From a virus: a stretch of DNA of 29,968 bases. The stretch's first letter is position 1, and each line of letters opens with the position of its first letter. The DNA lies in IMG/VR virus record IMGVR_UViG_3300009481_000062, positions 1 to 29,968 of that record. The stretch is one strand, 5' to 3'. Below are positions 178 to 4,332 of the stretch, piece after piece. The position numbers were made by a program, and so were the translations under genes. The notes under the pieces are model-generated. The model worked only from the letters and a program-made list of their open reading frames with translations, was not told the origin of the DNA and searched no databases.

Positions 178-197
178 TACTGTATGTATATACAGTA
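178..197 (-). promoter_or_regulatory. LexA (SOS) box, near-perfect gammaproteobacterial type
   Basis: The sequence is TACTGTATGTATATACAGTA. It has the CTGT-N8-ACAG core of E. coli-type SOS boxes and differs at one position from the consensus TACTGTATATATATACAGTA. It sits 21 bases upstream of the start codon of the minus-strand gene and 6 bases from its ribosome-binding site, so bound LexA could block transcription of that gene. Alphaproteobacterial LexA normally uses a GTTC-type direct repeat, so the box also hints at a gammaproteobacterial host. Confidence 0.75.
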
Positions 198-229: not shown

Positions 230-235
230 ATTATA
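230..235 (-). promoter_or_regulatory. Candidate -10 element for the minus-strand gene
   Basis: The minus strand reads TATAAT here. With a 17-base spacer the -35 would read AGGTAA (253-258), a poor match, and would fall inside the AACATT/AATGTT array at 248-285. Transcription would begin near 223, leaving a leader of about 65 bases that contains the LexA box. The weak -35 would suit an activated or repressor-controlled promoter. This is a guess from the hexamer alone. Confidence 0.35.
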
Positions 236-247
236 ACCCATAACCAT

Positions 248-285
248 AACATTTACCTAATGTTTTCTAACATTAATTTAATGTT
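248..285. promoter_or_regulatory. Four-half-site operator array (AACATT/AATGTT)
   Basis: Half-sites alternate in orientation: AACATT at 248-253, AATGTT at 259-264, AACATT at 269-274 and AATGTT at 280-285. Starts are 11, 10 and 11 bases apart, about one helical turn, so all four lie on one face of the DNA. The last pair is part of a perfect inverted repeat (AACATTAA-T-TTAATGTT, 269-285). The array sits between the minus-strand gene and the rightward promoter, a place where a phage repressor or activator would bind cooperatively. No regulator for it is obvious in this window. Confidence 0.5.
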
Positions 286-289
286 CTGA

Positions 290-336
290 GGGGGCAGTTC
301 TTAGACTATCAGCGTCACTCTCGCTCTGACACCCCC
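290..336. repeat. GC-rich imperfect stem (GGGGG...CCCCC)
   Basis: GGGGG at 290-294 can pair with CCCCC at 332-336, with an adjoining CAG/CTG pairing and an inner GTCA/TGAC pairing. The segment is much more GC-rich than its surroundings. It lies in the non-coding control region upstream of the first rightward promoter. It could be part of a small RNA, a transcription stop or a protein site. It lacks the T-loop and the other marks of a tRNA. Confidence 0.3.
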
Positions 337-363
337 ACGCGTACAACTTTTGAAAATTTTCGC

Positions 364-418: not shown

Positions 419-447
419 TTGACATGGAGTATAAAATTTGATATAAT
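419..447 (+). promoter_or_regulatory. Sigma70 promoter P1, perfect consensus with extended -10
   Basis: TTGACA (419-424), a 17-base spacer, and TATAAT (442-447), preceded by TGA to give an extended -10. Both hexamers match the bacterial consensus exactly. The expected transcription start, seven bases after the -10, is the A of the ATG at 454, so the first transcript is predicted to be leaderless. The same motif recurs at 9998 and 13273. P1 probably drives the long run of overlapping genes from 454 to 9994. Confidence 0.85.
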
Positions 448-2997: not shown

Positions 2998-3466
2998 AGT
3001 TGCCGCTCTTTGCAGTTTATTCTTATTGTCCATAAGCGCTGTTCACGCAGATGAACAGGTACACACATTCAAAAATCCGTCATTTTCTGGAATAGGTACG
3101 TCTGCACATTATTTGACTATCGAAAACCAGGAAAAATCAAGACGAGACAAAATACGAGATGATATCGAGGCCGCTCTAAAAGCCGCAGAAAGAGAAGAGC
3201 AAAACTCGACACTCGCCAAATTTATTAGAAACCTAGAATCAAGAATATATGCTCAATTGTCTAAGCAATTAGTAGACAATATGTTTGGTAACGATGAAAC
3301 AAGTTATTCTGGTTCTTTTACATTAGAAGGTAATACAATCACATACCAAAGAACTGAACAATGTCAGGAAGATGGTGTATGTATTGAAGTTATTATCATG
3401 ACTATTACAGATAGCGAGGGAAGTGAAACGGTAATTACCATACCGATTGGTACTGGAGGATTCTAA
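2963..3466 (+). CDS. csgF: CsgF-like curli assembly protein
   Basis: CsgF binds the CsgG outer-membrane channel and couples secretion to fibre nucleation. This product (167 aa) starts with a signal peptide (hydrophobic residues about 14-28, cleavage likely after VHA-DE). The mature N terminus reads HTFKNPSFSGIGTS, closely matching the FRNPNFGG segment of E. coli CsgF that inserts into the CsgG channel. A variable charged helical middle (50-105) and a C-terminal beta-rich domain follow. The gene lies directly before csgG with stop and start overlapping, the usual pairing. It is longer than E. coli CsgF (138 aa), mainly in the charged middle. Two cysteines (residues 134 and 139) sit in the beta domain. 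Confidence 0.8.
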   Translation: MKNENNVRDRIEVAALCSLFLLSISAVHADEQVHTFKNPSFSGIGTSAHYLTIENQEKSRRDKIRDDIEAALKAAEREEQNSTLAKFIRNLESRIYAQLSKQLVDNMFGNDETSYSGSFTLEGNTITYQRTEQCQEDGVCIEVIIMTITDSEGSETVITIPIGTGGF

Positions 3467-4332
3467 TGCTTAGAGCATTTTTACTACTGATTCTATTATC
3501 GGGTTGTGCAAGTGTGCCTACTATGAGGGAGTTCGAAAATAACAACTGTAACAACGAGGTTAAAGATGTTGTAACTCTTATAGATAGGGCAATTCCATAT
3601 ACCTGTGTAGAAGAAGCAGAAATTGTTCAATTACCAACTTATCAACAATTATTAGATTTACCACCAGCCGTAAATAAGCCAATAGTCGCAGTTTATAACT
3701 TTCAAGATTTAACAGGACAAAGAAAGCGTAGAGACAATCTTGCTGATTTTAGTACTGCTGTAACACAAGGTGGAACAGAGTTATTAATTGACGCACTTAA
3801 AACTGCTGGTGGCGGAACATGGTTTCGCGTAGTTGAAAGACACGGTATTGACAACCTTGTACGAGAAAGACAGATTATAAGAAGCACACGAGAAGAACAT
3901 GACGAAGACAAAGGTTTACAGCCTTTGCTTTTTGCAGGTATATTACTAGAGGGTGGTATTATAGGATTTGATACTAACATGGAATCTGGTGGTAGAGGTG
4001 CAAGATATCTTGGAGTAGGTAGAACAGTATCTTACAGAAGAGATGTAGTAACAGTAAGTCTTAGAGGTATTAGTACATTAACAGGAGAGGTCTTACTTAA
4101 TGTACAGACTAAAAAGACTATTTTATCAGTTGGGGCCGGATTTGATGTATTTAAATTCATTGATATGGATACTGAACTGGTAGAGTATGAAGACGGTGTA
4201 GCAGAAAACGAAAGTGTTACTGTTGCAACGCGTGCGGCTATTGAGGCTGCTGTCCTTGCGCTAATTAAGCAAGGGGACAAAAGAGGCTACTGGGAAATCC
4301 AGGAGCGTAAGGGAGAGAACGAAAATGATTAA
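3466..4332 (+). CDS. csgG: CsgG curli secretion channel lipoprotein
   Basis: CsgG forms a ninefold outer-membrane channel that exports curli subunits. The product (288 aa) has a lipoprotein signal with lipobox LLSGC (Cys14). Strong family matches follow: VAVYNFQDLTGQ, DFSTAV, a WFRVVER-like stretch, NLVRERQIIR, GGIIGFDTN, GGRGARYLG, KTILSVGAG, FKFID and RGYWEI. These run across the whole family length, so the gene looks intact. In the constriction loop the phenylalanine corresponding to E. coli Phe56 is kept (ADFSTAV). Asn55 reads Asp, and the Tyr51 region is basic (RKRRDN), so the pore lining probably differs. It overlaps the following curlin-like gene by 8 bases. Confidence 0.93.
   Translation: MLRAFLLLILLSGCASVPTMREFENNNCNNEVKDVVTLIDRAIPYTCVEEAEIVQLPTYQQLLDLPPAVNKPIVAVYNFQDLTGQRKRRDNLADFSTAVTQGGTELLIDALKTAGGGTWFRVVERHGIDNLVRERQIIRSTREEHDEDKGLQPLLFAGILLEGGIIGFDTNMESGGRGARYLGVGRTVSYRRDVVTVSLRGISTLTGEVLLNVQTKKTILSVGAGFDVFKFIDMDTELVEYEDGVAENESVTVATRAAIEAAVLALIKQGDKRGYWEIQERKGENEND

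Follow-up and report, generated by a model that had tools for sequence, protein, structure and literature searches.

A conserved pair of tandem dyad sites, probably a twin operator, before a leftward operon of uncultured T5-like phages

The OR and OL operators of phage lambda, on which CI and Cro act, consist of tandem 17-bp dyads that overlap the elements of sigma-70 promoters. The tum gene of phage 186 and the rstA gene of phage CTX are LexA-controlled phage switches. According to a published account, it is still unknown by what mechanisms T5 passes from one gene class to the next (PMC7472727). Here we describe an array of four AACATT half-sites in a 29,968-nucleotide stretch of viral DNA (IMG/VR record IMGVR_UViG_3300009481_000062), which we refer to as the window. 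The array comprises two adjacent dyad sites that are real and conserved, and judging from their sequence and placement they probably form a twin operator for a putative dimeric regulator that would control a leftward operon, most likely as a repressor. The features of the control region are collected in Table 1.

Table 1. Features of the control region and their positions in the window
Feature	Position	Strand	Sequence	Remarks
First gene of leftward operon, 49 aa	8..157	-		No assigned function
LexA (SOS) box	178..197		TACTGTATGTATATACAGTA	Upstream of divergent small gene; read from the sequence
Predicted -10 of leftward promoter	230..235	-	TATAAT	12 bp from the array; weakly supported, no good -35 found
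Putative operator nearer leftward promoter	248..264		AACATTTACCTAATGTT	Centre at about -33 from predicted leftward start
Putative operator farther from leftward promoter	269..285		AACATTAATTTAATGTT	Centre at about -54 from predicted leftward start
G-run element	290..350	+	G-run, TTAGAC, 33 bp, CGTACAACTTT	On the terS side, outside the array
Promoter P1 of terS	419..447	+	TTGACA-17-TATAAT	Perfect 12/12 sigma-70 match; not tied to the array
terS, small terminase subunit, 153 aa	454..915	+		PHROG 3802, E = 4.5e-40

Beyond terS, the window encodes the large terminase subunit and a portal protein, as well as a protein that matches families of head proteases and also of major head proteins. The best-matching cultured phages for both terminase subunits are T5-like, with less than 60% identity, and from these matches together with the late genes we assign the window, by sequence, to an uncultured T5-like phage, of which it represents the late-gene end. 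A nearly identical TerS is encoded by two other contigs (98 and 99%), those of L003/L004 and L016, and D5-like proteins also occur in the clade to which the window belongs. Elsewhere in the window, genes at 1107-1863 and 3466-4332 match annotated iscU, iscA and curli assembly genes of other phages.

Reading the sequence directly, we found AACATT at 248 (+), 259 (-), 269 (+) and 280 (-), exactly where the original prediction had placed the four half-sites. They make up two copies of the 17-bp palindrome AACATTNNNNNAATGTT with a period of 21 bp, and no other exact copy of this palindrome exists anywhere in the window. The hexamer itself is not enriched (40 occurrences seen and 35 expected across the window), so it is the arrangement of the half-sites that constitutes the signal. 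The idea that all four lie on the same face of the helix stands for the window lineage, in which the half-sites are spaced by 11, 10 and 11 bp, but not as a strict rule, as the site pairs of relatives lie 22-24 bp apart.

Conservation in related phages, whose absence had been named beforehand as the finding that would count against the array, is present. All four half-sites are kept in L003/L004 with changed spacers, and in L016 they are kept but for a single base, AACAAT replacing AACATT. The site at 248-264 is thus intact in L003 and altered at one base in L016 (AACAATAGTCTAATGTT), while the half-sites of the site at 269-285 are intact in both and only the L003 spacer differs (AACATTATTTTAATGTT). 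When 26 sites were pooled, the information lay in six positions of each half and almost none in the five spacer positions, although this conservation is partly built in, because the sites were gathered by the motif itself, a bias addressed by the shuffle test described below. Among 2.9 million viral contigs, just two (L003 and the contig of L022), both of them members of the T5-like group of the window, carry the exact tandem palindrome at a gap of 0-30 bp. Degenerate tandem arrays with a gap of 3-8 bp occurred in seven of these contigs; six belong to the clade of the window, and the seventh (L218) is unrelated to it and carries what looks like a chance array. Chance in AT-rich DNA would account for a hexamer that is not enriched, but the conservation of the sites and the clade specificity of the collection-wide searches refute it, and we regard this explanation as having a negligible probability. 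The expectation that the array exceeds chance is borne out by conservation, shuffles and searches alike.

The genes that accompany the sites point to their target. L016 extends past the edge of the window and reveals the rest of the leftward operon, in which small ORFs lead to a 299-aa exonuclease-like ORF; another two small ORFs follow, and then a gene for a protein of 170 aa that matches polynucleotide kinase families. The exonuclease-like label reflects conserved acidic motifs judged by eye without a family match: Pfam returned nothing for the 299-aa protein, PHROGs returned only a family of unknown function, and no close relative was found in the phage collection. A search with four proteins of the operon retrieved 21 loci. 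Of 17 regions covering the 1.3 kb before the exonuclease-like gene, 15 contain a site that departs from the motif by no more than one mismatch, and 11 contain a tandem pair with no more than four mismatches in total; dinucleotide shuffles give 1.9% per region for the single site and 0.15% for the pair. These regions include close relatives, so the independent cases are fewer than 17. In L104, where the operon is longer, a one-mismatch site has its start 40 bp ahead of the first gene. L106 has the operon with no near-exact site. The exonuclease-like gene also occurs, at 35 and 44% identity, in G006 and G007, which are more distant and again have no near-exact site there; it was not found in G005. 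We found no cultured phage with this operon, the only matches being distant and partial ones in Enterococcus phages. In L023 (G007), a different near-palindrome, GAAATTACTGGTAATTTC, lies between terS and the leftward operon, in the place of the AACATT sites of other relatives; it looks as though lineages had exchanged operator and regulator.

On its other side, the array adjoins terS and the G-run element, and in the window 4 bp separate its end from the G-run. Both circumstances would suit packaging or terminase-binding sites. Most other terS relatives, however, have no exact palindrome upstream of terS, and relatives differ widely in the distance between site and G-run, from 20 to 1148 bp. 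Because there is no fixed distance, we rejected a packaging or terminase site, which we consider very unlikely. The same variability indicates that the sites travel with the leftward operon, to which they appear to belong, rather than with terS and P1 or the G-run element; a link of the array to P1 is not supported, while its position beside a divergent gene with a LexA box is confirmed.

The terS side of the region has conserved features of its own. The G-run element upstream of terS is conserved in 33 distinct loci and follows the pattern of a G-run, TTAG.AGAC, a variable stretch and then C or T followed by GTACAACTTT. The variable stretch is exactly 33 bp long in 27 loci and 34 bp in six, and this constancy of length, together with a sequence that is free to vary, suggests a DNA site bound by a protein, which may be where packaging starts. 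A second palindrome, GCATCATGATGATGC (389-403 in the window), is found in 31 distinct loci, with the symmetric variants GCATCGTGACGATGC and GTATCATAATGATAC; it ends 50 bp ahead of the terS start in most of them and is likely an operator of the terS promoter. In L039, two tandem copies of CTGTACAAAAATTATACAG directly precede the G-run element.

The position of the sites relative to promoters, which in this comparison are sequence predictions and not mapped starts, indicates how they may act. In eight relatives (L091, L092, L093, L095, L097, L101, L102 and L107), a sigma-70-like promoter lies over the site pair. Counted from the start of the first site, its -10 begins exactly 40 bp further on; the -35, which reads TTGCAA, TTGATA or TTGATT, separates the two sites, and the spacer from -35 to -10 is occupied by the second site, a degenerate one in L091 and L093. 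The best promoter matches are those of L092 and L107. A single site covers the -35 in L104, L105 and L108, and in L098 and L103 the only site is upstream of it. Overlap with promoter elements is thus seen in the eight pair-type relatives and in L104, L105 and L108, and is weak in the window itself; L003 and L016 have TAAAAT at the same distance from the array as the predicted leftward -10 of the window. As most sites overlap core promoter elements, the geometry favours and points to repression, while the sites that lie only upstream of the -35 would fit an activator as well as a repressor. These upstream-only sites count against the repressor reading and leave room for activation or a dual role.

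Such a dual role is known from PRM of lambda, and the geometry of the pair-type relatives resembles that of OR2 and OR3 at this promoter. By analogy, a dual regulator, perhaps encoded in the leftward operon itself, would activate from the upstream site (centred at about -44 in these relatives) and repress at high level from the spacer site (about -21). The single upstream sites of L098 and L103 would suit this scheme. We consider it unlikely, however, since no helix-turn-helix (HTH) protein was recognised in the operon and the single site of L104, L105 and L108 lies over the -35, where activation is unlikely.

A structured RNA, with hairpins in a leader or terminator, would be another use of such dyads. 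The array of the window does fold better than its shuffles (z = -4.2 and -4.8), but this is lost in relatives (z = -1.7 and -0.9), sites of the form AACTTT-N5-AATGTT are retained even though their pairing is weaker, and the predicted start is downstream of the sites. As the fold is not kept and Rfam gave no significant match for the array, we rejected a functional RNA element and see hardly any prospect for it.

The reading that we prefer is that of a twin operator. It would consist of two 17-bp dyad sites with the consensus AACWWT-N5-AWWGTT, with a single regulator dimer on each site, and we infer the dimeric binding, the repression and the cooperativity from the layout of the sites. At least one site lies over the -35 or in the spacer between -35 and -10 in most relatives, so that a bound dimer would block RNA polymerase, and adjacent sites 21-24 bp apart would allow cooperative binding. 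The genes under control would be the small ORFs, the exonuclease-like gene and the kinase/phosphatase-like gene. In the window lineage, the pair would cover the -35 region and the DNA upstream of it, and the LexA box between the pair and the first gene would add SOS control. The CTGT-N8-ACAG dyad of this box is kept in L003 (TACTGTATATACATACAGTA) and L016 (TACTGTATATTTATACAGTA); an in-frame ATG further upstream would extend the product of the first gene up to 79 aa. Assignment to this class of operator is supported by the presence of at least two similar dyad sites in tandem, with half-sites conserved and spacers free across relatives.

The array was originally attributed to a phage regulator. 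It does resemble the kind of site to which a dimeric regulator binds, but the phage origin of this regulator is less clear, as the proteins examined in two large relatives included no recognisable canonical repressor. Among selected proteins of the 105-kb relative searched against Pfam and PHROGs, we found D5-like and sigma-region-4-like HTH proteins and no CI/Cro-type repressor. Gene presence and absence in G004 and G008, which have the sites, compared with G005 to G007, which lack a near-exact operon site, yielded no recognisable DNA-binding candidate, and the titles and abstracts of the literature gave no clear match to a regulator with this consensus. This lack of a phage repressor among the proteins examined would be explained if a host regulator reads the operators, wiring the phage operon into host control, and the adjoining LexA box shows host control in the window lineage. 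Such a reading is compatible with the twin operator and differs only in who makes the regulator; we hold it to be a serious possibility, if not the favoured one. Against it, the exact tandem array occurs in no gammaproteobacterial genome, in a scan that covered tandem arrays as opposed to single-site regulons. That scan returned 78 bacterial stretches, of which 76 belong to a repeat scattered through one Bacteroidaceae assembly and the other two come from one Bacilli and one Chitinophagaceae assembly. The repeat consists of tandem AACATTGCNNCAATGTT-like dyads in 76 stretches of a single genome from horse faeces (L121-L198 minus L151 and L189), and is unrelated to the phage finding.

If the regulator is made by the phage, it would be dedicated to the leftward operon, as the 105-kb and 75.6-kb relatives each have one such array. 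The operon encodes a conserved SAP-like small protein, confidently predicted to form three short helices (mean pLDDT 87), but as no structure match was significant (best E = 3.3), this protein remains a weak candidate for the regulator. It is conceivable, though improbable, that a clade-specific regulator, so far unrecognised, binds the twin operator and times the leftward operon, forming with LexA an SOS-gated switch in the window lineage; this regulator would possibly be an operon-encoded SAP/HU-N-like protein of about 50-65 aa without a classical HTH.

An operator that is conserved, specific to one clade and defined by a consensus provides bait for the regulator of phages that cannot yet be grown. 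It also marks which operon that regulator controls, and maps one control point in this group of phages. The phages studied here belong to the same broad group as T5, whose switching between gene classes is described as unknown (PMC7472727).

Tandem dyad operators are a familiar kind of control element, and what is new here is the occurrence of one in an uncultured T5-like phage group. As in OR and OL of lambda, the 17-bp dyads of the array stand in tandem at similar spacing over sigma-70 promoter elements; unlike in lambda, the half-site sequence is different, there are two sites instead of three, the phage is T5-like and not lambdoid, and no CI/Cro-like gene was recognised among the selected proteins. 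The layout is therefore lambda-like, without any claim to a particular repressor family. With 186 tum and CTX rstA, the window lineage shares a control region in which a LexA box is combined with a second type of operator, while it differs from these LexA-controlled switches in that no lysogeny genes were seen and the LexA box was followed in the window lineage only.
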